Virus record (IMG/VR): IMGVR_UViG_3300044213_000164
Span: 1-32,629 of that record
Direction: 5' to 3' (one strand)
Length of the DNA stretch: 32,629 nucleotides
Source: a virus
The notes below the pieces were generated by a model. The model was not told where the DNA came from. It worked only from the letters and a program-made list of their open reading frames with translations, and did no database searches. Below are positions 1 to 25,559 of this stretch, piece after piece (positions within the stretch are counted from its first letter, which is position 1; each line of letters begins with the position of its first letter). The translations under genes were made by a program, and so were the position numbers.

Positions 1-112
1 CTTTGATACCTTCAGTGCCCATATCTTCATCATTATGGTCCCAACGAAACCGTTTGTCATCTACTTTAACTGCCCACCCATCACAGTACCATTCAATCTC
101 AATATCTTTCAT
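1..112 (-). CDS. Hypothetical protein, C-terminally cut by the window edge
   Basis: Only the first 37 codons are inside the window, beginning MKDIEIEWYCDGWAVKVDDK. The ATG overlaps the TGA of the upstream gene in an ATGA junction, which supports this start and translational coupling. The peptide is rich in acidic and aromatic residues. I recognise no domain. It belongs to the small-gene operon running from 939 downwards. Confidence 0.6.
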   Translation of the reverse strand, partial: MKDIEIEWYCDGWAVKVDDKRFRWDHNDEDMGTEGIK

Positions 113-318
113 TCTTCAACTCCGAAATGTTCCTCGATCAAACTAGCACCATAGTAATAAGGCTCCTGGCCAGTTTCGGCACCTTTTATTTCTAAAACTT
201 TGGTACATTCTTTAATCAGCAACTCGGCGAACTTTTCAGCAACCAATTGTTCTTGGGTGTCAAGTTCTTTGATATTGTATCCAGCCTGTTCAGCAAGTTC
301 TTTAATTCGTTCGTTCAT
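109..318 (-). CDS. Small phage protein of the KFAEL(I/L)xxEC paralogue family
   Basis: A 69-residue protein starting MNERIKELAEQAG, with a central EKFAELLIKEC segment and the C-terminus EEHFGVEE. The same layout (an N-terminal MNE/MNK helix, a central KFAELIVREC helix and an HFGV-type tail) recurs at 679-939, 19079-19360 and 19357-19638, so this is one of four paralogues. The ATG at 318 was chosen over a longer frame because AAGG lies 9 nt upstream and the paralogues start at the same point. The function is unknown. Such short helical proteins are common in environmental T4-like phages, which is recollection and not a search result. The gene is tightly packed with its neighbours. Confidence 0.7.
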   Translation of the reverse strand: MNERIKELAEQAGYNIKELDTQEQLVAEKFAELLIKECTKVLEIKGAETGQEPYYYGASLIEEHFGVEE

Positions 319-322
319 AGTG

Positions 323-682
323 TTAAACCTTAAGTGTAGCCCAGAAGGCAGTCTTTTCCAAGTCACTTTGAAACTCAGGATAGACTTTGTTCAGTTCATC
401 AAACTCAACTGACCGGTAACCTTTATCTTGTTTCTTGAGAAACATTTCTTTAGCATCCCAATTGGAACCTTCCCAAATCTTAGTTTGAAGTTTTTTGCCT
501 CGGCGACCCCAGAATGTTACAAACGTTCCTTCATCCAGATAATAACCACCTGTCACTGAGTTGTAGTTGGCGATGCCTCCTTTATTTGGATCATAAGGTT
601 TGTTTCCATAATCTAAGCAAATAATACCCCACACTTTATCAGAGTTGCCTTCTTTGCACCAACCAATATGTTCGTATTTCAT
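323..682 (-). CDS. WGR-domain-like protein
   Basis: A 119-residue protein. After a beta-rich N-terminal half it has FVTFWGRRGKKLQTKIW, followed by a basic and aromatic stretch ending KGYRSVEFDEL. The WGR signature, with G and K residues after it and a downstream F-x-x-K-x-x-KGY segment, resembles the WGR nucleic-acid-binding module of PARPs and some ligase-associated bacterial proteins. It ends 4 nt before the next small gene and its ATG overlaps the upstream TGA (ATGA). A role in nucleic-acid binding is inferred. The DNA ligase a kilobase upstream in the same direction fits that but does not prove it. Confidence 0.55.
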   Translation of the reverse strand: MKYEHIGWCKEGNSDKVWGIICLDYGNKPYDPNKGGIANYNSVTGGYYLDEGTFVTFWGRRGKKLQTKIWEGSNWDAKEMFLKKQDKGYRSVEFDELNKVYPEFQSDLEKTAFWATLKV

Positions 683-939
683 TTTTTAACTCCGAAATGT
701 TGTTTAATCTTGTCTATAATATGTTGACTTTGTTGTATTCTTGCTTGGTTCCATTCTACATCACCTGGATTGAATACTTTCATATCCTCTACCCATTTCT
801 TTTGTTCAATGGCAACATCAACACATTCACGAACGATCAACTCGGCGAATTTTTCGAATTTGTGTTCAATGCCCAATCGTTCCATTTCTGGTTGATGAAA
901 GCCAGCTTTATTGAATAAATGTAGTAGTCGTTTGTTCAT
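679..939 (-). CDS. Small phage protein of the KFAEL(I/L)xxEC paralogue family
   Basis: An 86-residue protein starting MNKRLLHLFNKAGF, with a central KFEKFAELIVRECVDVA and the C-terminus IKQHFGVKK. It is a divergent paralogue of the proteins at 109-318, 19079-19360 and 19357-19638; the central helix and the HFGV tail are the best conserved parts. It is predicted to be soluble and helical. The function is unknown. Its TGA overlaps the ATG of the WGR-like gene. Confidence 0.7.
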   Translation of the reverse strand: MNKRLLHLFNKAGFHQPEMERLGIEHKFEKFAELIVRECVDVAIEQKKWVEDMKVFNPGDVEWNQARIQQSQHIIDKIKQHFGVKK

Positions 940-965
940 AATTTAATCTGTAAGAATGAAATTTA

Positions 966-1199
966 TTAATTTTTTAGTGCCTGTAATACCTGTTCTTTAG
1001 CTCTTCGGTCAAGATCTTCTTCTTCTGCTTTACGAATTTGAAAAGCCATTGCTTCTAAAAACGCCAAAATTGCCGCCCTACCTTCATCGGTGAAATGGCT
1101 ATATGGTTCGCCCAGCTGACTATGATAGTAAAAACGATTATTACTTAATAGCTCTTCGAGGCCGCCATATATTATTTGTTTAATTGCAGTTTTATCCAT
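966..1199 (-). CDS. Hypothetical small phage protein
   Basis: A 77-residue protein beginning MDKTAIKQIIYGGLEELL, containing NNRFYYHSQLGEPYSHFTDEG and an acidic, charged helical C-terminus. The open frame extends far upstream into the ligase gene. The ATG at 1199 is preferred because it follows the ligase TAA after a single base, the usual junction in this window. I do not recognise the family. The central aromatic segment followed by a long amphipathic helix suggests a small helical protein. Co-expression with the ligase is inferred from the junction. Confidence 0.6.
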   Translation of the reverse strand: MDKTAIKQIIYGGLEELLSNNRFYYHSQLGEPYSHFTDEGRAAILAFLEAMAFQIRKAEEEDLDRRAKEQVLQALKN

Positions 1200-1200
1200 A

Positions 1201-2526
1201 TTAAATTTTTTCGCCTTTTGCAAAACCTCTGAATCGAATAAATCGGGGAAACCGGAGGCTGTATATGTCTTGACTATCTTGGCTCCTAGTTGCCGCATCT
1301 GCTCGGATTTCCACGACCTGACCCACGACATTACTTTTGTCCAACCAAAATGCGTCGCGATCGCCATCACTAAATCCGCTACCCACATTGACCACAATCT
1401 TTTTACCATCATCTACTCCTTCGCATACCAATGCACCCATTTTACCCACATTACGCCCTGTACCTTCTTCGACTGCGATAACTGTCAAGCTGACTTCAAT
1501 GAATGGCTTGAGCTTAAGCCAGGCGACGCTACGTTTACACTCGTACGGTGCATTAATTTCTTTAATCATAATGCCTTCGTATCCGCCTGCAATAGCTTGT
1601 GTATTGATCATTTTAAATCGTTCTTGGCCCTGAATGGTATCAAGGTCAACTAATTCTTGAGCAACGATTTCAATATTTGGTGTTTCTTCTGCCCACAACT
1701 CTTTCCACGCCAGCAACTTTGCCGAGCGATCAATTTGCTTGCGGTCCCATCGACCTTTATTAAATGCATCAAGAGTCAAGAAATCAAACAAGTGCAATAC
1801 GCTGTCGCTGGCCTCAACATTGCTTTTGCGATGCACTTGTTTCATCAGATCTTGAAAGCTAGAACTCATGATTTCGCCATCAAAAACTACTGGTTCAGTA
1901 ATGCCTGTGACTGTCTTTGCAAACTGCTCTTTAATGTGCGGAAAGTTTACCAGCTCCTTACCATTGCGGCTGAATTGGTCAACACGACCATCAGGATACA
2001 CGACAGTAATAACACGAACGCCGTCGAGTTTGACTTCGATAAGTTTTTGTCCAGTAACTTTGGATTCATGATTAGCACTATCATGAGCAAGCTGGCAACT
2101 AAAAATAGGAATTGCATATTCGGGCCATTTCTTTTCTACAACTTTATTGATGGTTTTTTCGCTGGCCCCACATCGAAGATCTTTGATTAAAATACGGCGA
2201 TACCACCCATTCCATTCTTTCTGAGTAGCGGCCTGCATCAGTGATACAACCATATCTCTGGCGGCATTGCCGGTGACCTTCCGACTAATAAATCCAGTGA
2301 TGGCTAATGTAAAATTATCCCAGGTTAATCCCGAACCGTCTGAGTCAGTTTTTTCTGGAATTTGTTTTAGACCAAATGTAATCATCGGATCTAATGCAAG
2401 TTTACATCCTTCAAAAAATACATTATTGCCCCACTCTGCTTGGGCCTGAATAATTGCTTCTTTATTCAACCGGCTAGGATGGTTTTCGAGATCGCAGATT
2501 ACGCTATGTGGGGGATCAAATGACAT
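1201..2526 (-). CDS. ATP-dependent DNA ligase, T4-like
   Basis: A 441-residue protein with the ordered motifs of covalent nucleotidyltransferase ligases. Motif I is EVKLDGVR with the adenylated lysine at K166. Motif III is VFDGEI, followed by LHLFDFLTL, motif IV YEGIMIK, motif V AWLKLKP and a C-terminal RFPRFIRFR resembling motif VI. The length is close to T4 gp30 (about 490 residues). It should seal nicks in phage DNA during replication and repair. The start has no clear Shine-Dalgarno. A near-perfect sigma70 promoter sits just upstream (TTGACA-17-TATAAT), suggesting early expression. A hairpin overlaps the promoter and leader. Confidence 0.95.
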   Translation of the reverse strand: MSFDPPHSVICDLENHPSRLNKEAIIQAQAEWGNNVFFEGCKLALDPMITFGLKQIPEKTDSDGSGLTWDNFTLAITGFISRKVTGNAARDMVVSLMQAATQKEWNGWYRRILIKDLRCGASEKTINKVVEKKWPEYAIPIFSCQLAHDSANHESKVTGQKLIEVKLDGVRVITVVYPDGRVDQFSRNGKELVNFPHIKEQFAKTVTGITEPVVFDGEIMSSSFQDLMKQVHRKSNVEASDSVLHLFDFLTLDAFNKGRWDRKQIDRSAKLLAWKELWAEETPNIEIVAQELVDLDTIQGQERFKMINTQAIAGGYEGIMIKEINAPYECKRSVAWLKLKPFIEVSLTVIAVEEGTGRNVGKMGALVCEGVDDGKKIVVNVGSGFSDGDRDAFWLDKSNVVGQVVEIRADAATRSQDSQDIYSLRFPRFIRFRGFAKGEKI

Positions 2527-2557
2527 AAAAAAGCACCATTAGGTTAGTAATAGTGCT
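2526..2557 (-). terminator. Hairpin plus T-run between the 2593-3048 gene and ligase
   Basis: A 10-bp stem with one G-U pair (arms 2548-2557 and 2532-2541, loop 2542-2547) is followed on the minus strand by TTTTTT directly before the ligase ATG. For transcripts arriving from the upstream gene this has the form of a rho-independent terminator. It overlaps the ligase promoter start region, so it might also act as an operator-like palindrome. Confidence 0.6.
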
Positions 2558-2586
2558 ATTATATGTTAATTTTGAATTAATGTCAA
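2558..2586 (-). promoter_or_regulatory. Sigma70-type promoter for DNA ligase
   Basis: On the minus strand TTGACA (2581-2586), a 17-bp spacer and TATAAT (2558-2563) match the consensus exactly. Predicted transcription starts near 2551, giving a leader of about 25 nt before the ligase ATG. Confidence 0.8.
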
Positions 2587-2592
2587 ATAAAA

Positions 2593-3048
2593 TTAATTGA
2601 TAGATTCAACGGCTTTTTTGACTGTGTTGAAATACAGTTCATTAATATATTGGTATGCAGATGTAGTAATTATCACCGGAGTTTTATTTTGTGGAGTTCC
2701 GGTATACGCCAATGTACCGTCTTTATTTTTTGCCTGTACACCGGATTCTGATTTTGGAAGCCCGTTAACAAATGTTTGTACAGCAGTCTCGGCAGCATCT
2801 TTATCTGCTTGAGAAGGATATGTTTGAACTACTTGGGTATCGCTGGTACTAACTTCAACCATACCGTGTGATGCGCGAATACTGTTTAGTTCAGTAGTAA
2901 CTTCGGCCCAAACATCTGCAGCTGTTTTTCCTGCAGTATCTGGAAAATGTGCATTCAAATATGCATTATCAAATGCAGCCAAGAATTCATCAATGGTCTG
3001 ATTTGGATTAATTATTGGTGTGTTGTTATATGTAACTGTAATTGCCAT
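2593..3048 (-). CDS. Hypothetical protein, possibly virion-associated
   Basis: A 151-residue protein beginning MAITVTYNNTPIINPNQTID. It is acidic, rich in T, N and A, has no cysteine and no signal peptide. The N-terminal beta-like segment followed by an alanine-rich helical section is reminiscent of small virion proteins, but I recognise no family. An AAAGGA site lies about 8 nt before the ATG and an exact late-promoter octamer TATAAATA lies upstream, so late expression is likely. It is bounded downstream by the hairpin before the ligase gene. Confidence 0.6.
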   Translation of the reverse strand: MAITVTYNNTPIINPNQTIDEFLAAFDNAYLNAHFPDTAGKTAADVWAEVTTELNSIRASHGMVEVSTSDTQVVQTYPSQADKDAAETAVQTFVNGLPKSESGVQAKNKDGTLAYTGTPQNKTPVIITTSAYQYINELYFNTVKKAVESIN

Positions 3049-3074
3049 TTTACTGGTCCTTTAAATATTATGTG

Positions 3075-3082
3075 TATTTATA
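3075..3082 (-). promoter_or_regulatory. T4-like late promoter octamer
   Basis: TATAAATA on the minus strand, 27 nt upstream of the ATG at 3048. It is identical to the T4 late promoter consensus used by gp55-type sigma factors. Confidence 0.6.
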
Positions 3083-3095
3083 CCTGCCGGCAGGA

Positions 3096-3425
3096 TTAAA
3101 TGTGTTTACATTTTCCTCGAAATTTGAAGCCAGGACAGCCGCAGATTAATCCGTTTTCGGATTCTTCTATAATATATTTATTTCCTTTACTGCCTATTAC
3201 CTCTTTCACTACCCTATTTTCTTCTTTTTTGATAGTAAATTTAAATGTATTTTTTACTTCTTCAAATGTCCTGCCCCGAGAATCAATTCGAATCGGTTTT
3301 TTGAATTCTTTAACGGTAGTTGATTTCGGTGCAATATATGCATACATCAAACTCTTGCTATTGTCCAACAAGTAAATGCCGGACTTAATTCCATTGTAGT
3401 CGGTGGTATCTTGATAGAATTTCAT
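3096..3425 (-). CDS. SWIM-type zinc-finger protein
   Basis: A 109-residue protein whose C-terminus reads ICGCPGFKFRGKCKHI. The residues C95, C97, C106 and H108 form the CxC-x(n)-CxH pattern of SWIM zinc fingers, which bind nucleic acid or protein partners. The first 60 residues hold a beta-rich unit with IRIDSRGRTFEEV. The frame ends right after the finger, so it is a minimal SWIM protein, not a helicase or recombination mediator with extra domains. It has its own sigma70-like promoter upstream. The precise role is unknown. Confidence 0.7.
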   Translation of the reverse strand: MKFYQDTTDYNGIKSGIYLLDNSKSLMYAYIAPKSTTVKEFKKPIRIDSRGRTFEEVKNTFKFTIKKEENRVVKEVIGSKGNKYIIEESENGLICGCPGFKFRGKCKHI

Positions 3426-4277: not shown

Positions 4278-5774
4278 TTAGAACATGAAAACAGATTGAG
4301 TTTCCGCAGCCGATTCATCCAAGGTTACTGTATATCCCCACAAATACTCGATGTGACTTAGTACTTTTGATTTATTTTTATCGCTGAGTTTGGTTTTGTT
4401 ATAAGGAGTATAAACTAATTCTAATTCCCTACTGCCTGTGAGATTGGCATTAACGATCTGTATATCGGGAGTATAATTTGATGTACTGTACTGATTGCTT
4501 AACGTTTTTCGAATACTATCGTATCCTGTTTTGTTTTGAATGCTTGACACGCTAACAAAGTTATCACTTTCGTTATTAGTAATTTCGAATAACCCCCACT
4601 CGCGAATAATCTTAGGACTCAAAAACTGCAAGATAAAACTTTCGTCACGGAAATTTCTGACTGCATCCAAACAAACATCCAACCACGGTTCATTGACAAG
4701 ATGTGGGAAATATTCCCGATCTTCGTCTGTTGGCGAGGTACATATTCTTCTGATGTCGCTGAATATAGCAAACCCCAATGCATAAGGATTAAATCCATTA
4801 TAGTATTTGCTCTTATAACTTTGCTGAGCCAATACTCCGCTGTGACTATGAATGAATTCTAAATAATTGCCGTCACTGATTTGTCCTTTTTCCCATAAAC
4901 GATTCATAATATAGTAGTGAGTAAAACTAGCCCAACCCTCATTCATTAATTTAGTTTGACGTTGAGGGTAAAAATACTGATTAATTTTTCGTACTATACG
5001 TACTACTTCACGTTGCCACCCTTCTAATACTGGGCTGTGTTTTTCAATAAAATATAGAATATTATCTTGCGGTTCTTTGGGAAATACATCGGTATCGTTC
5101 CCCTTGTCTAATATGTTAACGGTTTGAGATGGTAGTGTTGACCAAAGTACATTAGCCTGTTGTTGAACATATAATTCTCTCTCTTTTTGTTGTTCTAGTT
5201 CTCTTTTTTTACTTGGCTTTGTTGGTCTGGTATACTTATCTATTCCATAATCGCTGATAGAGTGGCAAGCGTCTAAGGTTTCTTCAACAGCCTTGCCCCC
5301 ATATTTTTCTTCACATTTTGCGATATAATTTTTAGCAAACTGTAAGTAATCTAATATGCCTTCGGCATCTGTCCATTGACGGAACAAATAATTATTCTTA
5401 AAGAAGTGATTATGACCGTATGCAGCGTGAGCAATTACCAAGGTTTGCATGGTCATGCTGTTTTCTTCCATCAGATAGCTAATACAAGGACTTGAATTAA
5501 TAACTATTTCATATGCTAGTCCCATATGTCCTTTTCTATAACTATTTTCTTGTTGTAAGAAATGTTTGCCAAAACTCCAGTGATTATACATTAACGGAAG
5601 TCCATGACTACTATATGCATCCAACATCTGATCGCTACCTATGATTTCAATTTGATTGGGGTATACATCCAACTTTAATTCGTCAAATGCAATTTTTGCA
5701 ATAGCATCTTCTACTTTTTTTAACTTTTCAAAAGACCATGAATTATCTGTATACAGTAACGTTTTTTTGCTCAT
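4278..5774 (-). CDS. spoVR: SpoVR/YcgB family protein
   Basis: A 498-residue protein, close to the roughly 510 residues of E. coli YcgB. Family features include an N-terminal helical region, YEIVINSSPCISYLMEENSM, the histidine-rich AHAAYGHNHFFKNNYLF, and NEGWASFTHYYIMNRLWEKG, all close to bacterial SpoVR. The molecular function is not settled; bacterial members are expressed in stationary phase or sporulation and are often encoded with PrkA and YeaH. The ATG overlaps the TGA of the yeaH-like gene, so translation is probably coupled. It appears intact. It is the third gene of the cassette. Confidence 0.93.
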   Translation of the reverse strand: MSKKTLLYTDNSWSFEKLKKVEDAIAKIAFDELKLDVYPNQIEIIGSDQMLDAYSSHGLPLMYNHWSFGKHFLQQENSYRKGHMGLAYEIVINSSPCISYLMEENSMTMQTLVIAHAAYGHNHFFKNNYLFRQWTDAEGILDYLQFAKNYIAKCEEKYGGKAVEETLDACHSISDYGIDKYTRPTKPSKKRELEQQKERELYVQQQANVLWSTLPSQTVNILDKGNDTDVFPKEPQDNILYFIEKHSPVLEGWQREVVRIVRKINQYFYPQRQTKLMNEGWASFTHYYIMNRLWEKGQISDGNYLEFIHSHSGVLAQQSYKSKYYNGFNPYALGFAIFSDIRRICTSPTDEDREYFPHLVNEPWLDVCLDAVRNFRDESFILQFLSPKIIREWGLFEITNNESDNFVSVSSIQNKTGYDSIRKTLSNQYSTSNYTPDIQIVNANLTGSRELELVYTPYNKTKLSDKNKSKVLSHIEYLWGYTVTLDESAAETQSVFMF

Positions 5775-7039
5775 TGTTTTGTACTTTCTTTGGCAAATAA
5801 TTCTTTAAATACAGGCCAAATGTCGGCTGGTCTGAATGCTTTTTTAATTTGTAAGGTCGGAAACATTTCTATTAAATGCTCATATAATTTCCAAATATCG
5901 GACCGTCTTAAAGAACCGTCGTAATAGTTACTATCCCTTAATTCTACATATGCAAAATATTGCACCAGTGGCAATAAACTTATCATTGCTTCGTTGCAAG
6001 GTTGATAGTCATCTCCGTAGTTATCGCCGTCGCTAGCTTGAGCTACATAGATGTTCCATTCATTTAAATTGTATCGTTCGTTAATAATTTTTTTAGTTAA
6101 TTCAATCGCGCCACTAACAACAGTACCGCCACTTTCTTTACTGTGAAAAAACTCTTGTTCGTCGCATTCTATAGCTGTTTCGTGATGTCTAATAAACACC
6201 ACTTCAACTTTTTGATATTTTCTATATAAAAACATATGCAGCAGAAAGAAGAATCTTTTGGCAAGATCCTTTTCTTTCTCTCCCATACTAGCACTGACAT
6301 CCATTATACAGAACATTACTGCTTTAGTCATGGGTTGCGGTTGCGGAACAAAGTTTCTATATCTAACATCAAACGGATCTAACCAAGGTATAGCCACTTG
6401 TCTTCTTTTTAATTCCTCGATTTGTTCGATGATTTTATTTTTTTCATCGTCGTCGACGGTTGATAATAGTTTTTCTTCTAATTCGGCAATTTCTTCATCT
6501 TTTGGTCTACATAAGCCGATTCTGCGTCCTATACTATTTTTTAAACTACGAACAATATCTAATTGACTGGGGTTTCCTTGATTGCTATAACCGGCACGTT
6601 TCATTTGCACCTTAGTTACATCTTTCATTTGTTTTTTAACAAGGTTAGGTAATTCTAAATCTTCAAATATAAAATCTAAAAATTCATCCTTACTCAAAAC
6701 AAATTCAAAATCATCTTGGCTTTCGCCTAACCCGCCTTCGGATCCTCCCGGGCCTCCCTGTTCGTTGGACTTGGCTTGTTTATCTCCTACTATGTGTTCT
6801 TTATTACCGGGCATGACATATTTTTTATCTCCGGTTTTATGATCGGTCGTAAAATGAGGTTCGTCTATGCCTTTGACTTTGACTCGTGCTTTATCTTTTT
6901 CGATGTCAGCAATATTACCATTCTTGATGGCATCTTTAACTGACTCTTTAATTTGATCTCGGGCCCGTTGGATAAACTTTTGACGATTTTTAATCGTCTT
7001 GTCTCGCGGATTTAAACGTCTATCAATTATATTAGACAT
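5771..7039 (-). CDS. yeaH: YeaH/YhbH (DUF444) family protein with VWA domain
   Basis: A 422-residue protein beginning MSNIIDRRLNPRDKTIKNRQ, near the 427 residues of E. coli YeaH. It has a basic N-terminal region, a glycine-rich linker (residues 90-105) and a von Willebrand A-like domain with a metal-binding D247-V-S-A-S251 motif. The later FHSKESGGTVVSGA is typical of the family. In bacteria it is a partner of the PrkA kinase. An AAGGAT site precedes the ATG, 11 nt after the prkA stop, and its TGA overlaps the spoVR start. All regions expected of the family are present, so it is probably functional. Confidence 0.93.
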   Translation of the reverse strand: MSNIIDRRLNPRDKTIKNRQKFIQRARDQIKESVKDAIKNGNIADIEKDKARVKVKGIDEPHFTTDHKTGDKKYVMPGNKEHIVGDKQAKSNEQGGPGGSEGGLGESQDDFEFVLSKDEFLDFIFEDLELPNLVKKQMKDVTKVQMKRAGYSNQGNPSQLDIVRSLKNSIGRRIGLCRPKDEEIAELEEKLLSTVDDDEKNKIIEQIEELKRRQVAIPWLDPFDVRYRNFVPQPQPMTKAVMFCIMDVSASMGEKEKDLAKRFFFLLHMFLYRKYQKVEVVFIRHHETAIECDEQEFFHSKESGGTVVSGAIELTKKIINERYNLNEWNIYVAQASDGDNYGDDYQPCNEAMISLLPLVQYFAYVELRDSNYYDGSLRRSDIWKLYEHLIEMFPTLQIKKAFRPADIWPVFKELFAKESTKQ

Positions 7040-7049
7040 TGGTCAATCC

Positions 7050-8993
7050 TTATGCACTTTTTCTGACACGCATATACCAATCGACCAATCGGCGTATTTG
7101 ACGTGAAGTATATCCTCTATCCTGCATTCTTGCAATAAAGTCGTTATGCTTCTTCTCGAGATCTTTATCTTTTTTGCTATCGAAACTGATGACTGGTAAT
7201 AAATCTTCAACTTGACTAAACATTTTCTTTTCAATTACATCGCGTAACACAGCGTAACTGGTCCAAACTGGATTTTTACCTTTGTTTTCTGTCTTAGCTC
7301 TTGCACGTAGACAGAAGTTGACTATCTCATTTCTGAAATCTTTTGGATTCGCAATGCCAGCCGGCTTTTCAATTTTTTCTAGTTCGTCATTTAACAAACT
7401 ACGATCCATTAACAAACCGGTATCTGGATCTTTAAATTCTTGATTCTGAATCCAAGCATCTGCATATTCAACATAACGGTCAAATAAATTTTGTCCGTAT
7501 TCACTATAACTTTCTAGATATGCTTTTTGTATTTCATTGCCTAAAAACTCTGCATATCTAGAACTTAGCTCGCTCTTGATAAAGTCTAGATATTTTTCCT
7601 CTCGTTCTTCACCCAATTGCTCACGTTTGATGGCTGTTTCTAGTACGTACATTAAATGTACAGGATCAGCGGCAATTTCTTCTGGGGTAAAATTAAATGT
7701 TTGGCTTAAGATTTTATAAGCGAAACGAGTAGAAATGCCATCCATTCCTTCATCCACTCCGGCAACATCTTTATATTCTTGTATACTTTTAGCTCTGGGA
7801 TCTTGCTCCCGAATATTCTCACCATTATATACACGTAGTTTACTAAATGGAGTTGAATTTTCGTGATCTCGTAATCTTGTCAACACACTAAACTGTGCTA
7901 ACATTTCAATGGTTTGTGGTGCACACGGTGCAGTACCTAAACCAGATCCACTGATCATCTTTTCATATATTTTCTTTTCTTCGTCAACACGTAAGCAATA
8001 TGGAACTTTAATAACACAAATACGATCTAAGAAAGCCTCATTATTTTTGTTATTTCTAAAAGTCTGCCATTCGCTTTCGTTGCTGTGGGCTAATACGATT
8101 CCTTGGAACGGTATAGCACTAATTGCCTCAGTACCAACATAGTTACCTTCTTGAGTGGCGGTAAGCAATGGATGTAAAACTTTAATAGGAGCCTTGAACA
8201 TTTCAACGAACTCTAATAGACCTTGATTAGAACGACACAGGCCACCACTATAACTATAAGCATCAGTATCATTCTGACTGAATTTTTCTAATTTGCGAAT
8301 ATCTACTTTACCTACTAAAGTTGAGATATCTTGATTGTTTTCATCACCCGGTTCTGTTTTCATAACAGCAATCTGTTCTAATTTACTAGGTTGTAAACGA
8401 ACAACTCTGAATCTGGTTAAGTCGCCGCCGAATTCTTTTAATCTCTTGATAGCCCACGGACTTAATATGGTGTTTAAATATCTTTTATTAATACCATAAT
8501 CATTTTCTAAAACATCAAAGTATTGTGGATTAGAAAAAAGCCCCAGTGGGCTTTCGAATACTGGGCTGATTTCCCCCGACTCTGAAGCCAAGGCATAAAT
8601 CGGATTAATTTCCATTAGTTCCTTAAGGCGTTCTGCCAAACTTGATTTACCACCGCCCACTGGGCCCAATAAGTATAGTACCTGTTTACGTTCTTCTAAT
8701 CCCTGTGCAGCGTGCTTGAAATAACCAACAATGCGTTCTACTGCATCTTCCATACCGTAAAATTCCTTGAAAGCTGGATAAATTCGCAATGTTCTATTAG
8801 AAAATATTCTGCTTAATCTTAAATCTTTACTAGTATCGATTAATTCCGGCTCCCCGATTGCAGAGACCATTCTCTCCGCCGCAGTAGCATAAATCATTGG
8901 ATCTTGTTTACATAAATCTAAATATTCGTCGATTGTTAAAGTTTTAAACACATTTTTATCGAAGTTTTCTTTGAAAAGTGATACGATTGACAT
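7050..8993 (-). CDS. prkA: PrkA family serine protein kinase / AAA+ protein
   Basis: A 647-residue protein, essentially full length against E. coli YeaG/PrkA (644). Walker A is LLGPVGGGKSSLAERLK (G110 to S118). Family blocks include ATAAERMVSAIGEP, RLSRIFSNR, FYGMEDAVERIVGYFKHAAQ and VLAHSNESEWQTF. The start at 8993 was chosen over a frame six codons longer because AGGAGG lies 5 nt upstream of this ATG and the N-terminus then matches bacterial PrkA. The family is described as a kinase and as an AAA+ protein in starvation responses. It is the first gene of a prkA-yeaH-spoVR operon with a late-type octamer about 20 bp upstream. Confidence 0.95.
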   Translation of the reverse strand: MSIVSLFKENFDKNVFKTLTIDEYLDLCKQDPMIYATAAERMVSAIGEPELIDTSKDLRLSRIFSNRTLRIYPAFKEFYGMEDAVERIVGYFKHAAQGLEERKQVLYLLGPVGGGKSSLAERLKELMEINPIYALASESGEISPVFESPLGLFSNPQYFDVLENDYGINKRYLNTILSPWAIKRLKEFGGDLTRFRVVRLQPSKLEQIAVMKTEPGDENNQDISTLVGKVDIRKLEKFSQNDTDAYSYSGGLCRSNQGLLEFVEMFKAPIKVLHPLLTATQEGNYVGTEAISAIPFQGIVLAHSNESEWQTFRNNKNNEAFLDRICVIKVPYCLRVDEEKKIYEKMISGSGLGTAPCAPQTIEMLAQFSVLTRLRDHENSTPFSKLRVYNGENIREQDPRAKSIQEYKDVAGVDEGMDGISTRFAYKILSQTFNFTPEEIAADPVHLMYVLETAIKREQLGEEREEKYLDFIKSELSSRYAEFLGNEIQKAYLESYSEYGQNLFDRYVEYADAWIQNQEFKDPDTGLLMDRSLLNDELEKIEKPAGIANPKDFRNEIVNFCLRARAKTENKGKNPVWTSYAVLRDVIEKKMFSQVEDLLPVISFDSKKDKDLEKKHNDFIARMQDRGYTSRQIRRLVDWYMRVRKSA

Positions 8994-9013
8994 TAAGCCT
9001 CCTATGTTCATAA

Positions 9014-9021
9014 TATTTAGT
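9014..9021 (-). promoter_or_regulatory. Late-promoter-like octamer for prkA
   Basis: ACTAAATA on the minus strand, 21 nt upstream of the prkA ATG and followed by the AGGAGG ribosome site. It is divergent from the TATAAATA at 9046-9053. Confidence 0.45.
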
Positions 9022-9045: not shown

Positions 9046-9053
9046 TATAAATA
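9046..9053 (+). promoter_or_regulatory. T4-like late promoter for the speD-like gene
   Basis: An exact TATAAATA on the plus strand, 24 nt before the ATG at 9078, which is itself preceded by an AAGGAAAT ribosome site. Confidence 0.65.
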
Positions 9054-9077: not shown

Positions 9078-9434
9078 ATGTCTGCATATTGGGGATATCA
9101 TTTAATGCTAGATTGTTCAGGCTGTGAACAAATAGATAGTAAAGATAATATATATAATTTTATTAAAGATATGGTACCCAGAATAGGTATGCAGGCACAC
9201 GGTGAACCTATAATAGAATATTTGTTGCCGGGGGATCCTAAACAAGGATACAGTTTAATGCAGTTGATTACTACTAGTAATATTTGCGGGCACTTTATGG
9301 AATTAGATGGTACTGCATACTTTGATATATTCAGTTGCAAAGAGTTTGAAATAGATCTAGCTAAACAAATTATTGTAGAATATTTTAATCCTAAAAAAAT
9401 GAGAGTCAATTATATTACTAGACACGCAGATTAA
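9078..9434 (+). CDS. speD: S-adenosylmethionine decarboxylase-like protein
   Basis: A 118-residue protein, the size of prokaryotic AdoMetDC proenzymes, starting MSAYWGYHLMLDCSGCEQID. Family landmarks are the WGYHLMLDCSGC strand, YSLMQLITTSNICGHFMEL and AYFDIFSCKEF. S67 would be the self-cleavage serine that becomes the pyruvoyl cofactor; H72 and C87 match the catalytic histidine and cysteine by spacing (S+5 and the DxFSC position). The residue before the serine is Thr where cellular enzymes usually have Glu. It would supply decarboxylated AdoMet for spermidine synthesis. It is the only clear plus-strand gene, with its own late promoter and AAGGAA ribosome site. Confidence 0.82.
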   Translation: MSAYWGYHLMLDCSGCEQIDSKDNIYNFIKDMVPRIGMQAHGEPIIEYLLPGDPKQGYSLMQLITTSNICGHFMELDGTAYFDIFSCKEFEIDLAKQIIVEYFNPKKMRVNYITRHAD

Positions 9435-12012: not shown

Positions 12013-12087
12013 TGGTGCGCTAGACAGGAATCGAACCTGCTCTCTGGAGTTTTAGAAGCTCTTGCTATACCATTTAGCTTCTAGCGC
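12013..12087 (-). tRNA. tRNA with apparent CTA anticodon (candidate amber suppressor)
   Basis: A 75-nt cloverleaf with encoded CCA. The acceptor stem is a perfect 7 bp (GCGCTAG with CTAGCGC), the D-stem 4 bp (GCTA/TAGC) with AATGGTA loop, and the T-arm GCAGG-TTCGATT-CCTGT. Counting from both ends places the anticodon loop as TTCTAAA, giving anticodon CTA at 12053-12055, which reads UAG. Oddities: position 8 is A where U is expected, and the anticodon stem has only three clean pairs (28-42, 29-41, 30-40) with A-C mismatches at 27-43 and 31-39. A one-base shift would give TCT (Arg) but with a worse stem and no position 26. Confidence 0.8.
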
Positions 12088-15664: not shown

Positions 15665-15965
15665 TTACTATTTTTGGTTACAAGGCATAGTTGCCCCGGA
15701 GATTACGCCGCTAGGGCAAATACCTCATCGTTAGATGCGTTAGCATTTACTTTATTTGCTTCTTCGGCCGAGTTCTCCCAACCCTAACGGCTTCTACATT
15801 GCCGAGTAGATCTTGTCAATACTTGTTGCCCTGTCGAAACCTTTCATCCCCATCAAATAGATATTGGAACCGTTTACATTCCAATTTTATGGTGTTTAGC
15901 TCTTAAGCATCTATTTGGTGGAGATGTCGGCATACGATAGCCGAGTCCAGAACTTCTTTCTATTT
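15665..15965 (-). ncRNA. ssrA: Circularly permuted (two-piece) tmRNA
   Basis: Transfer-messenger RNA, rescues stalled ribosomes and tags the peptide. Read on the minus strand, the acceptor piece comes first: T-stem TCGGC/GCCGA, then CATCTCC-A-CCA (15916-15926). A 64-nt linker (15852-15915) follows, then the coding piece starting GGGGATGAAAGGTTTCGACA at 15851. GGGGATG pairs with CATCTCC over 7 bp, including the G3-U70 pair that specifies alanine. The tag frame begins at GCA 15759 and encodes ANKVNANASNDEVFALAA, TAA at 15703-15705, ending in the usual ALAA. CAGGGC (15828-15833) can pair with GTTCTG (15948-15953) as the start of helix P2. The T-loop is 8 nt (TATCGTAT), unusual. The linker arms AAATAGAT/ATCTATTT extend the acceptor helix. 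The outer 5' boundary is approximate. Confidence 0.9.
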
Positions 15966-15970
15966 AAGCC

Positions 15971-16729
15971 TTAAACTACTATTCTGTTTTGTGGCATACT
16001 TTGTTTAAGCCTACCACTACTAAACCCTTTAAGTTTATACTCTTGTTCTTTTTCTAACAAGATGTAATGTTCCTTTATACCATTATTTACCCAACATTTG
16101 GTAATAGTATGCCCTTTCTTACCTCGGACCCACCCATCTGGTATACTGTCATTTATTGTAATGCGTTTCACTTCTTTAGTCAATATATTTGAAATCCAGA
16201 TTCGGCCAAATTGAGAATTATTCTCTCCCTGGCTGTGTTTACGCTTGTTAAAAGTTTCTTTGCGTTTTGCAATAGCATCAGGATCTTTGGCTCGCTCATT
16301 CATGAGTTTCATATGCTCAGGTGAACGAGTCCAATCATATTGCTTTTGCCACTCTGGATCCTTAAATGGATTATCGTCCCGTCTGGATCGTTTTTGTCCG
16401 CCACGCCTAGAATTTTCACTATGCTGTTCACTACCATTGTAGTGGTCCCACCCGCCGTTGCCGCCTTTGTGCATATTGTAGGTATCTTTACGCTTTACAA
16501 AGTCCTCTGTTACTATACTCAACTCTTTTTCGGCCATTTCTTCCTTTGAGTTGCAGTAGTGCAAAACTTCTTTCTTGAAGTTTTCTATACCATACTTTGC
16601 TATTGCAGATTTGATTTGCTTACCTGAACCGTAGTAGCCATTTTCTGCAGGTGGTAATGTGGACTTATGCTTGCCCACATATATTTTATTATTCAGGAGG
16701 TTAGTAATTTGATAGACATAAAAATACAT
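15971..16729 (-). CDS. GIY-YIG homing endonuclease
   Basis: About 252 residues. The N-terminal GIY-YIG domain has YFYVYQITNLLNNKIYVGKH and a following YGSGKQIKSAIAKYGIENF. The middle is a basic, repeat-like region (SRRGGQKRSRRDD, AIAKRKETFNKRKHSQGENN) of NUMOD3 type, and the end has two ISN/WVNNG-type DNA-binding segments (RIWISNILTKEVKRI and CWVNNGIKEHYIL). The ATG at 16729 is preferred to one four codons upstream because AAAGGA is only 2 nt from the upstream ATG and about 10 nt from this one. It ends just upstream of the tmRNA acceptor piece. Confidence 0.85.
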   Translation of the reverse strand: MYFYVYQITNLLNNKIYVGKHKSTLPPAENGYYGSGKQIKSAIAKYGIENFKKEVLHYCNSKEEMAEKELSIVTEDFVKRKDTYNMHKGGNGGWDHYNGSEQHSENSRRGGQKRSRRDDNPFKDPEWQKQYDWTRSPEHMKLMNERAKDPDAIAKRKETFNKRKHSQGENNSQFGRIWISNILTKEVKRITINDSIPDGWVRGKKGHTITKCWVNNGIKEHYILLEKEQEYKLKGFSSGRLKQSMPQNRIVV

Positions 16730-21594: not shown

Positions 21595-22068
21595 TCAATC
21601 GTCAACCGATTCCGGTAATGCATTGCCTTTAAGGTAGTCTTTTTCTTTATACGTGTTAATCATATGACAACGGCAACAAAGGGTCTGAATGTTGTCAGCG
21701 GTATCACTACCTCCATCGGATTTTCGAATTAAATGGTCCCCGTGCATTACACCTCGCATACAACGAAGTTTATGGAACGGATCTTCAATGTCGTCGAATT
21801 GTGAATCTTTTCTGGGATCGTACTTACATTTAACACATATCCAACCTCGATAGAAAGTATGTGGACGATCTGCCTTGCCCATACCTTCTCCATATTCAAC
21901 CATTAACAATTGATGTTCTCGGCAATAACTATCACTGCCCGGGCCCTCATAGTCAGTTAATGGTTGATTGCAATCTTCTAACCTACAAACCGGAGTATAT
22001 CGCAACTGTTGTTTTAGTAAACTAAAACTTTTCAGTTTATCTTTTGTCGGGTCAAGCAACTTAGACAT
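21595..22068 (-). CDS. HNH endonuclease-like protein
   Basis: 157 residues. The N-terminal half has two cysteine clusters (CRLEDC and SYCREH, ICVKCKYDP); the C-terminus has the HNH core MHGDHLIRKSDGGSDTADNI with QTLCCRCHMINTYKE. The full ββα-metal set (H, D/N, H plus CxxC knuckles) is present. The ATG at 22068 is preferred to a GTG overlapping the upstream gene. It could be a homing, restriction-like or packaging-associated nuclease; the context with a methyltransferase and DGQH protein favours a DNA-modification or homing role. Confidence 0.8.
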   Translation of the reverse strand: MSKLLDPTKDKLKSFSLLKQQLRYTPVCRLEDCNQPLTDYEGPGSDSYCREHQLLMVEYGEGMGKADRPHTFYRGWICVKCKYDPRKDSQFDDIEDPFHKLRCMRGVMHGDHLIRKSDGGSDTADNIQTLCCRCHMINTYKEKDYLKGNALPESVDD

Positions 22069-22073
22069 TTTGC

Positions 22074-23225
22074 TTACCACAAATCTGCTTTATTAGGAAC
22101 AAAATCACTATCGTTGTCTGCCGCAGGAACTTTGAGTTTTGTATGCTTGCGTAAGTTGGCCAGCAGGAATGGCCCGCCGCATTTCCACTCCTTGGTGAAT
22201 CCGCGAACTTTAATTTCACCATCTTCGTCGCGCTCTGCATCGGGATTGTGTTTATTGGCTTCTCTATACCAAGAGTCGTAGACCATCTTGCACTTACTCC
22301 AAAACGGGCCGCGAGCACTAAAATCTGCTTCAAAGTAATCCAATGTAAACTGTGCAAACTCTTGCAAATAAGCAGAATCTACTACAATGTTGGCTTTAAA
22401 TGCCGCATCGAAGAACTCATATAATTGACGAGCTTCCTTAGGATCAACTGCACGAGATTGATTAATTAAAACCCAATATTCCGCAAACATTCTAGTAACT
22501 TCGGGATCTTTAAGAGTTTTTTCACTCTTGCTCATTATGGTGTCAGCCAGCAAAGTAAATGCCCCGTCTTTATTTTCGTCGCCGAATTTTTCGTGTGTTA
22601 CAAAGATGCCCGCGCCCTCAAGATAAGTTTGCTTAAGTTCTGTAGCGACCCACAACGGATCGTCGGCGCCGTCTGATCGTACACCGCAAACCATTTGTCG
22701 ATACATATCAACAAAATCTAATGGCTCTTTAGCTTCGCCGTTCAATAAAATAAAGTTACGTCGAATTTCTGACTTCATCTTAACTGGATATATGACCACA
22801 GGCACCATTAGTTCTGCAATTCTTTCTCCGAATATTTTTGTGGCCAATATATATAATACAATGGCGGTGTGCTGCCCATCCCACGCAATATAATATCCAG
22901 GTCGATCCGGATCTTCATATACTTGAATAGCCATTATCATAGTTTCTTTAAAACTATTAATAATATTAAGAATATGGTTCAAATTGACTTGTCGTTGCAT
23001 CGTGGTGTCGATAAGAATTCGATCCATGGGCACTTGTATGGCCTTACATAAACCTAAATCGGAAAATTTTTTCCAATGCTTATGTCGACGCTTAAATTCA
23101 GCAACAATGCGATCTAATAGAGGTTCGAACACATCTCCGAGACTCTCTGCTAAACGTTCTCTCAACGAGACAAAATGACTTTCTTTTTGATTGTAAAAAT
23201 CATTTGCTTTATCAGCATACGACAT
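22074..23225 (-). CDS. DGQH-motif ParB-like domain protein
   Basis: A 383-residue protein. The N-terminal third has IQVPMDRILIDTTMQRQVNL and GYYIAWD116GQHTAIVLYILA, which matches the DGQHR signature of DndB and ParB/Srx-like nucleotide-binding domains, with T in place of R. A helical middle domain (PKEARQLYEFFDAAF) and a basic tail follow. DndB-type proteins regulate DNA phosphorothioate modification; the ParB-like fold alone is used in many phage proteins, so the role is open. AGGGAG precedes the ATG, and a sigma70-like promoter with an upstream palindrome drives it. It is the first gene of the module with HNH and methyltransferase. Confidence 0.65.
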   Translation of the reverse strand: MSYADKANDFYNQKESHFVSLRERLAESLGDVFEPLLDRIVAEFKRRHKHWKKFSDLGLCKAIQVPMDRILIDTTMQRQVNLNHILNIINSFKETMIMAIQVYEDPDRPGYYIAWDGQHTAIVLYILATKIFGERIAELMVPVVIYPVKMKSEIRRNFILLNGEAKEPLDFVDMYRQMVCGVRSDGADDPLWVATELKQTYLEGAGIFVTHEKFGDENKDGAFTLLADTIMSKSEKTLKDPEVTRMFAEYWVLINQSRAVDPKEARQLYEFFDAAFKANIVVDSAYLQEFAQFTLDYFEADFSARGPFWSKCKMVYDSWYREANKHNPDAERDEDGEIKVRGFTKEWKCGGPFLLANLRKHTKLKVPAADNDSDFVPNKADLW

Positions 23226-23264
23226 TTATCAACTCCCTACACCTTTGTTATCAATACAAACTAT

Positions 23265-23293
23265 ATTGTAACATCGACGGTATTTTGAGTCAA
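23265..23293 (-). promoter_or_regulatory. Sigma70-like promoter
   Basis: Minus-strand TTGACT (23288-23293), 17-bp spacer, TACAAT (23265-23270). Precedes the DGQH gene. Confidence 0.7.
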
Positions 23294-23302
23294 ACCAAAA
23301 AA

Positions 23303-23320
23303 GTAATACTAAAGTACTAC
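23303..23320. repeat. Promoter-upstream palindrome, copy 5
   Basis: GTAATACTAAAGTACTAC, one mismatch from a perfect palindrome, 9 bp upstream of the -35 box at 23288-23293. It overlaps the end of the 23317-23628 gene. Confidence 0.55.
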
Positions 23321-23628
23321 TTTGTTAACTGTTGCATTTTTACAACATCATCGGCTGTTTGCCCCGGTAAATTTGAATCAGCGGATGCTGTGGGGATTAT
23401 AACTGGGCGATATTCTCTAATAATATCAACGGGTTTTTGTTGCAACGGCACTTGATTCAGGCTGGTAAATCGACTGCCGTACTTTTGTGCCGCATAGTAA
23501 TCGGCATTATAAGAAGTGTTATAAACAGGAAATGGATACGGACTGACTCTCTCCACTTGTTGGTACACGATCATTTGTGCATCGCTGATCGCCGAGACAA
23601 ATATCAACAATAATCCAAGTTTTTTCAT
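23317..23628 (-). CDS. Small exported protein
   Basis: 103 residues starting MKKLGLLLIFVSAISDAQMI, a signal peptide cleaved after a SDA site. The mature part is rich in Y, P, V and Q (VERVSPYPFPVYNTSYNADY, QKPVDIIREYRPVIIPTASA). No domain recognised; it would be periplasmic. A near-consensus promoter has its -10 box over 23634-23639, so transcription would begin almost at this ATG and translation may be leaderless. An ATG two codons earlier lies inside the -10 box. Confidence 0.6.
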   Translation of the reverse strand: MKKLGLLLIFVSAISDAQMIVYQQVERVSPYPFPVYNTSYNADYYAAQKYGSRFTSLNQVPLQQKPVDIIREYRPVIIPTASADSNLPGQTADDVVKMQQLTK

Positions 23629-24273: not shown

Positions 24274-25002
24274 TTAAGTTTTACCAGTAGTACGTTGTTG
24301 ATTTGCAGCAGCTACTTTTACCAAACGTTCTCGACTGTCTAACCCTTTGGGTTTTTTACCATTGATTGCTGTTGAAATTTCTTTATGGCCAGCGCCGGCA
24401 GATATTTTTGGTGCAACACGTTCTCTCCAAAAAACCACCGCCAATGCTATAGCAACATCTTTACGCATGGCCAGGTTAGGGTTCTTTAATAGTTCATCGC
24501 CCAGGCCCGGACGAATTTTATCCCCGAAATGTTTATAATTATATTTTCCAGTAATTTGTAAAAATCCACGACCAATATATTTTTCAGCATCTTCCATACC
24601 TTTATTGCCCAATGGATTAGATGCTTTGGCGTAATGTTTTAAATTCTTCTCGGGATTTTTTTCAATCATACTAGTGAAGTTAGCAGTCTCATGTGCGACT
24701 TGACCAATAAAGAGTGCCACTTGATTCGCTGGCAAATACTTGTTGGCCATTTTTTCTACGTATGCTTTTAATTCTTCAGGACTTGCACCTGCACGACTTT
24801 GCTCGGGCGTGATTTTATTTGCAATGGGTTCTGCTTTTTGCATTTTTGCTTGCGGAGTTTGATGGCTAATACTGTGTGGTATAGCGTGTGCACCTAATGC
24901 AGATGCACCCAATGCGGCACCTGCTACCCAGTCCTTCCACCCTTCATCTAGCTCGGGCGTCGAATATATATTATCTTTGTTGTATAATTCGTGCAAAAAC
25001 AT
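24274..25002 (-). CDS. GH19 chitinase-like lysozyme (endolysin or virion muralytic enzyme)
   Basis: 242 residues. The N-terminus MFLHELYNKDNIYSTPELDE is followed by a hydrophobic VAGAALGASALGAHA stretch. The catalytic GH19 core begins around residue 78: IGQVAHE105TANFTSMIE114 holds the two usual acidic residues, and YIGRGFLQITGKYNYKHFG is the family substrate-binding segment. GH19 domains in phages cleave peptidoglycan. The LxE before GW resembles a T4 prohead protease site, so the enzyme could be a capsid or baseplate-associated lysozyme, not only an endolysin (inference). It lies between the lipase-like and HD genes. Confidence 0.85.
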   Translation of the reverse strand: MFLHELYNKDNIYSTPELDEGWKDWVAGAALGASALGAHAIPHSISHQTPQAKMQKAEPIANKITPEQSRAGASPEELKAYVEKMANKYLPANQVALFIGQVAHETANFTSMIEKNPEKNLKHYAKASNPLGNKGMEDAEKYIGRGFLQITGKYNYKHFGDKIRPGLGDELLKNPNLAMRKDVAIALAVVFWRERVAPKISAGAGHKEISTAINGKKPKGLDSRERLVKVAAANQQRTTGKT

Positions 25003-25006
25003 TTTA

Positions 25007-25558
25007 TTAACTCTGTACTTCGCTCAACTTTGCTCTAATTAATGAAATTAATTTCTTATGCGTTCCAGATAATACACGATTCTGCTCTAAATAATCCATT
25101 ATGTGCTCAGTTTCTGCTTTATATTTGGCACGCCACGCAGGGCTTTTAGCAGTAGCAATATCTGCTACATTATCCAGTCTATCAGCTAATTTAATTACAA
25201 GAGCGTAGCTGGTCAGGTCGTGTGCCATCTTCTTGGCAAGATAGTCTTTCTTGCCGATTCGTTTAATTTCCTCAACATCGCTAGTAAGTTCTTGGACCAA
25301 ACTAGCGACTAATCCGCCAAACAAATCGTGTAATGCTTCGTGCGTTGTATCAGTATCCTCAATGGTATCGTGCAGATAAGCGGCCGCGATCAATGCATCA
25401 ATGTTGTGACTTTGTTTATATTGTTTAACAAGCTGTGCCACTCTTACCGGATGTGTAATGTATGGAGCACCTCCGGACCGAGTCTGTCCTTGATGTTGTT
25501 GTGTAGCGTAATTTAAGACTTGTCTGAGATCTTCTGCAATAATTTCACTATATCTCAT
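25007..25558 (-). CDS. HD-domain ppGpp hydrolase-like protein (small alarmone hydrolase)
   Basis: 183 residues from the ATG at 25558, 1 nt after the amidoligase stop. Contains RSGGAPYITH36P, the HD signature LH63D64TIEDTDTT and LAD126RLDN, plus SDVEE, as in RelA/SpoT hydrolase and Mesh1-type proteins. There is no synthetase domain, so it would only degrade (p)ppGpp. The N-terminus MRYSEIIAEDL resembles the T4 capsid-targeting peptide MKTYQEFIAEA, with I-A-E before the predicted cut. It may be packaged and injected to lower alarmone levels at the start of infection (inference). Confidence 0.85.
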   Translation of the reverse strand: MRYSEIIAEDLRQVLNYATQQHQGQTRSGGAPYITHPVRVAQLVKQYKQSHNIDALIAAAYLHDTIEDTDTTHEALHDLFGGLVASLVQELTSDVEEIKRIGKKDYLAKKMAHDLTSYALVIKLADRLDNVADIATAKSPAWRAKYKAETEHIMDYLEQNRVLSGTHKKLISLIRAKLSEVQS

Positions 25559-25559
25559 A

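Follow-up and report, generated by a model that had tools for sequence, protein, structure and literature searches.

The window analysed here is an entire viral record of 32,629 bases, and on its minus strand (positions 4278-8993) lie three adjacent, full-length genes in the order prkA-yeaH-spoVR, whose coordinates are given in Table 1. All three products give near-full-profile Pfam matches, which bears out the original prediction, made from the sequence of this window, that a complete set of near-bacterial length is present. The motifs that it described as intact are all there as well, namely the Walker A motif of PrkA, the D-x-S-x-S MIDAS motif of YeaH and the His block of SpoVR. The short gaps that had been proposed are also seen: prkA and yeaH are separated by 10 nt, and the ATGA overlap between yeaH and spoVR is real. 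The predicted coordinates hold, including the PrkA end at 8993, where the ATG is favoured as the start over an alternative ATG at 9011 (653 aa) because AGGAGG lies just upstream of the former and not of the latter.

Table 1 Features of the prkA-yeaH-spoVR locus in the window.
Feature	Position	Strand	Remarks
PrkA/YeaG-type AAA+ ATPase	7050..8993	-	647 aa; Pfam, residue matches to E. coli YeaG
YeaH/DUF444, vWA-domain protein	5771..7039	-	422 aa, MIDAS motif complete
SpoVR/YcgB	4278..5774	-	498 aa; gluzincin-like fold predicted, SpoVR_C domain
ACTAAATA, T4-type late-promoter-like core	9014..9021	-	26 nt upstream of PrkA ATG
ATGA stop/start overlap, YeaH-SpoVR coupling	5771..5774	-	
S-adenosylmethionine decarboxylase-like gene (phrog_3125)	9078..9434	+	Divergent neighbour of cassette

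The PrkA protein contains both domains of its family, the AAA domain (AAA_PrkA PF08298, 1.1e-175) and the PrkA C-terminal domain (PF06798, 3.5e-69), and its Walker A motif reads GPVGGGKSS. Residues K122, R239 and K433 (653-aa numbering) correspond in E. coli YeaG to K116, R232 and K426, positions at which mutations abolish function (PMC4664914), and the equivalents are invariant in window PrkA and in the two phage clades, A and B, that are described below. The PDB contains a PrkA-family structure (9xip), and PrkA of B. anthracis has been described as an AAA+ protein in which protease activity was undetected (PMC13001217). We assign the window protein to the PrkA/YeaG family, with a predicted ATPase or kinase activity. 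Its partner YeaH is a full-length DUF444 protein (PF04285, 1.2e-150, profile positions 2-418 of 418) in which the vWA MIDAS residues D247-x-S249-x-S251, T306 and D337 are conserved. The AlphaFold model of YeaH has a mean pLDDT of 75.9, rising to about 90 in the vWA part, and structurally matches vWA domains, the MIDAS of Rea1/midasin among them.

Both family domains, SpoVR (4.5e-164) and SpoVR_C (1.8e-16), are found in the third protein, with a His block of H116..H121-N-H123. Its AlphaFold model (pLDDT 85.6) was compared with gluzincin metallopeptidases using VIA-align, giving Z scores of 13.2 for 3o0y, 11.0 for LTA4H, 10.1 for Pz peptidase and 7.0 for MATCAP; in a mostly helical protein, Z scores of 10-13 are suggestive of gluzincin likeness and not proof of it. 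Foldseek alone returned no significant matches to the model, and homology of SpoVR to DUF885 was considered and rejected after a negative hhalign profile comparison. The site comprises H116-A-A-Y-G-H121 and N278-E279-G280, in which the conserved H116, H121 and E279 could serve as metal ligands. An Ala follows the first His in all aligned relatives, in place of the catalytic Glu of gluzincins, and divergent phage SpoVRs show H-V-Y-G-H or H-A-T-G-H, plus (H/N)-E-G. The protein was not filed as a gluzincin peptidase, as the catalytic Glu of HExxH is missing although the proposed ligands are conserved. This combination would suit either a pseudo-peptidase that binds metal or a divergent enzyme, and the predicted gluzincin-like fold offers an initial structural hypothesis for the protein.

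A late-type promoter had also been proposed ahead of prkA, and this claim stands in part. The core in Table 1 is a variant of the T4 late promoter TATAAATA, and it recurs in relatives, but PrkA is not preceded by TATAAATA itself. A perfect copy at 9046-9053 was rejected as a PrkA promoter since it lies on the opposite strand; it precedes the S-adenosylmethionine decarboxylase-like gene (SpeD) by 30 nt. On its own, the ACTAAATA site is uninformative because CTAAATA occurs no more often than by chance in the AT-rich window (8 found, 7.8 expected), so the informative test is a comparison with relatives. The T4 late promoter ends in TAAATA, and this hexamer was sought within 90 nt upstream of PrkA, with expected counts derived from dinucleotide shuffles. 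We see it in 10 of 11 clade B phages (2.2 expected) and in 14 of 27 clade A phages (4.8 expected), and in none of 37 bacteria. As TAAATA recurs in relatives before otherwise different sequences, the cassette is probably transcribed late in infection.

Elsewhere in the window are genes for a phage-type ATP-dependent DNA ligase, an endolysin, and GIY-YIG and HNH endonucleases, in addition to the S-adenosylmethionine decarboxylase-like gene. There is no T4-type capsid or portal gene in this 32,629-base fragment, and a search of phage records at the nucleotide level gave no match to it. At the protein level, many copies on viral contigs share 80-86% identity with window PrkA, against at most 73% for bacterial ones in the collections scanned. 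One cassette relative (81%) lies on a 164 kb contig (L013) that encodes a T4-type Gp23 capsid protein and a T4 portal. Among the contigs with a ligase close to that of the window are Gp23-encoding jumbo contigs of 244-356 kb, and a protein 80% identical to the product of window positions 22074-23225 is encoded on a contig of 231 kb that also has Gp23. Since T4-type capsid or portal genes are found in relatives by cassette and by ligase alike, the window most likely derives from a larger genome, that of a T4-like jumbo phage.

The original prediction had named a bacterial contig or prophage-flanking region as the finding that would undo it, and contamination of this kind does occur. The record of Enterobacter phage LAU1 (MN688132.1, L163, positions 1-3308) opens with host yeaG-yeaH, which is likely a chromosomal flank left on a prophage record; we counted it as bacterial, and it is also placed among bacteria in the tree. 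For the window, however, the cassette falls inside a phage clade whose members lie on contigs with Gp23 and a T4 portal. The far closer identity of window PrkA to phage copies than to bacterial ones, the phage-type ligase, endolysin and homing endonucleases, and the T4-like jumbo contigs on which ligase relatives are found all speak against a bacterial contig or prophage flank, and the dN/dS values given below argue against the decay expected of a functionless hitch-hiker. We regard such explanations as very improbable and practically refuted, the sole remainder being a mis-assembly of this contig, against which the relatives speak.

Some further features of the window were recorded. A permuted (two-piece type) tmRNA gene at 15703-15980 (-) matches Rfam RF04321 with 89.4 bits (cut-off 47, E 3.8e-16) and carries the tag ANKVNANASNDEVFALAA-stop; this gene was missed by ARAGORN. 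Of 34 related phage records, 15 score above the RF04321 threshold, including T4-like jumbo contigs of 164-578 kb, and the tags of these permuted tmRNAs differ, mostly ending in ALAA. The phage-encoded permuted tmRNA may merit separate study. A tRNA gene at 12013-12087 (-) has a CUA anticodon of the amber suppressor type (Pyl according to ARAGORN; Rfam tRNA 58.2 bits), and a TAG stop ends only 2 of 50 window genes. Finally, a 763-aa protein encoded at 25560-27851 (-) gives a weak amidoligase match (PF12224) just above cut-off, and one relative of it was found on a viral contig, at 60%.

A peptide-pattern scan of IMG/VR gave 198 PrkA relatives, and the best 80 loci were examined for the co-occurrence of the three families that had been suggested as a check. 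PrkA, YeaH and SpoVR are found in the order of the window and on one strand in 67 of these 80. The other 13 loci all end within 1.4 kb after PrkA, and a true loss of YeaH or SpoVR was rejected for them on that ground. Contigs bearing the cassette reach 578 kb, and all three families are present in three uncultured phage genomes of 634-642 kb; in LR756502, SpoVR is far from PrkA and YeaH. Twelve phage contigs that share a related ligase or other related genes with the window (six have Gp23, and the largest is 356 kb long) contain neither PrkA nor SpoVR above the family cut-off, in a test that detected all four positive controls. The cassette is thus an accessory, not a core, gene set of these phages. 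It combines a homologous host operon, accessory presence and maintenance by selection, as an auxiliary host-derived set should.

The surroundings of the cassette vary between clades. The S-adenosylmethionine decarboxylase-like gene that adjoins it in the window was not found next to it in relatives, and in one jumbo subclade (L033/L056) the cassette is downstream of head and tail-like genes and a PAAR-endolysin gene. Homing endonuclease-like genes, called partly from motifs, have repeatedly invaded the phage cassette, at both of its junctions, with GIY-YIG insertions in L007, L008, L009, L042, L043 and L061 and HNH-like insertions in L006 and L029; by eye, none were seen in the large gaps of bacterial cassettes. 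A full-length elongation factor G-like gene (phrog_6880) lies downstream of the cassette in five loci of jumbo phages, L014 (16207-18309, 701 aa), L020, L022, L027 and L028.

Separate trees were built for PrkA, YeaH and SpoVR from 73 loci, with bacterial sequences chosen by similarity to the window together with Pseudomonadota samples. Any pair of gene trees has 21-22 of about 30 well-supported splits in common and 0-1 conflicts. Because the three trees agree, we conclude from the sequences that prkA-yeaH-spoVR moves between genomes and is inherited as one block; the unrelated origins that would have spoken against the original prediction were not found. The window falls in clade B with a support of 100 in all three trees, and the large phage clade A, the 630 kb phages and L055 form lineages separate from it. 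A single origin of all phage copies, including L055, L164 and L166, is rejected by the AU test (p 0.013), while clades A and B as one clade are not rejected (p 0.56). Two loci on short contigs without a portal gene group elsewhere, L063 with Hyphomicrobiaceae and L057 with or near Roseomonadaceae; these appear to be later block transfers, and a bacterial origin is possible for both. For phage pairs with measurable dS, the dN/dS (Nei-Gojobori) is 0.02-0.10 in all three genes, a rough figure since several dS values exceed 1. This indicates that the phage cassette is under strong purifying selection.

Overall, the cassette is an accessory module, probably of host origin, in T4-like jumbo phages. 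Under nitrogen starvation, YeaG and YeaH of E. coli jointly quiesce metabolism, and mutants survive starvation poorly and restart faster (PMC10954441, PMC4664914); in nitrogen-starved cells the two have been described as a metabolic brake (PMC10954441). Given these yeaGH genetics and the conservation of the residues needed there, we infer a role in host starvation, as the original prediction suggested, in which the phage cassette would be a late-acting copy of the host AAA+/vWA/SpoVR stress machine, working on host physiology. We give this reading about an even chance. PrkA would be the oligomeric AAA+ ATPase of the machine, the vWA/MIDAS surface of YeaH would link a substrate or partner to PrkA, and SpoVR, gluzincin-like without the usual catalytic Glu, would be the third, substrate-handling component. 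Acting late on host targets, as YeaG/YeaH do in starved E. coli, the machine would provide a metabolic brake and stress survival, and a slow-growing or starving host might thereby be kept alive and productive through the long jumbo-phage cycle. That such a machine has this effect on the host is our inference. We favour a role in host physiology because the set co-occurs, is inherited as a block and is under purifying selection, with YeaG-essential residues invariant and the late core enriched. The lack of detectable protease activity in B. anthracis PrkA (PMC13001217) was counted against it.

The chief rival is that the set is a chaperone for virion assembly, in head or tail morphogenesis, which we consider rather unlikely. 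A morphogenesis role has been proposed for a MoxR-vWA-metallopeptidase pair of analogous design in group 2.2 jumbo phages (PMC7824862), and Acidianus two-tailed virus reportedly uses its MoxR-vWA system in this way. The late-type promoter core is in favour of this rival, and in several phages the genes lie near virion genes: between portal/minor head and TerL in Lalka8, a few genes from TerL in phiYS40, and behind the head, tail-like and PAAR-endolysin genes in L033/L056. The positions in Lalka8 and L033/L056 suit assembly and host physiology equally well. Yet the neighbours of the cassette change between clades, and related contigs with a T4-type capsid gene, as long as 356 kb, lack it; such patchy presence is expected of an accessory set rather than one essential for virion assembly. 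Host-like functional residues and the repeated transfer of an intact operon also better suit a host-type function. A second alternative is that the phage proteins form mixed complexes with host YeaG-YeaH-SpoVR, shutting off a host stress or dormancy response that would be limiting for the phage, as a form of interference or counter-defence. The PrkA identity of about 65-73% to host proteins would permit mixed oligomers, from which the remainder of this idea is extrapolated, but an inhibitor need not preserve the whole set intact, and here none of the known functional residues has been lost and purifying selection acts on all three genes. We judge this improbable. A broader formulation, possible but offered tentatively, is that of a three-part AAA+/vWA/gluzincin-like remodelling machine, with SpoVR as a metal-binding pseudo-peptidase or divergent peptidase, that has been recruited on separate occasions, at least twice by jumbo phages and independently by Thermus phages, as a late dormancy-control or virion-finishing factor.

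An intact, selected and apparently late-controlled phage set gives an independent handle on the widespread bacterial stress proteins YeaG, YeaH and SpoVR, and it is informative about their role because a lytic phage pays for each gene that it carries. It suggests that giant phages repeatedly need to control host dormancy, or need a chaperone, and leads to the testable idea that long-cycle phages in slow hosts bring their own metabolic brake.

The original prediction was rightly doubtful as to how often these genes had been reported in phages. Single genes of the cassette have been annotated before, in the phiYS40 record (SpoVR and a serine kinase), in the 2021 paper on Ralstonia phage RsoM2USA (SpoVR and PrkA; PMC8504454) and in PHROG families. 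A literature search, covering few subscription journals, found no paper that treats all three as one phage cassette, and PrkA and SpoVR are not mentioned in the jumbo-phage papers PMC7824862, PMC13282480, PMC12619734 and PMC13037316.

The closest known system is the yeaG-yeaH-ycgB operon of Pseudomonadota, which has the same families, order, lengths and motifs as the window; all three genes were present at 75 of 80 bacterial loci. The phage copy differs from it in having a T4-type late-promoter core before prkA, in being often interrupted by homing endonuclease genes, and in forming sequence clades of its own. Among isolated phages, the jumbo myovirus RsoM2USA carries SpoVR (ORF28, 21,854-23,371) and PrkA (ORF30, 24,727-26,670) on one strand and in the order of the window, annotated not as a set but as unrelated single genes for replication and signal transduction (PMC8504454). 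The 1355-base gap between them, taken from the coordinates in that paper, would fit a YeaH gene. The Thermus phages phiYS40, phiLo and Lalka8 have clustered vWA, SpoVR and PrkA-like genes, as in the window, but the order is vWA-SpoVR-PrkA, the identity is only about 21-35%, and the K426 position is not conserved in their PrkA-like proteins, unlike in jumbo-phage clades A and B. In Lalka8 the set sits among head and packaging genes, in the order portal, minor head, vWA, SpoVR-like, AAA, two short ORFs and TerL. Finally, the MoxR AAA+/vWA-metallopeptidase pair of group 2.2 jumbo phages (PMC7824862) likewise joins an AAA+ protein, a vWA domain and a peptidase-like fold, the last being predicted for SpoVR, but its AAA+ family is different and its peptidase is fused to the vWA protein.
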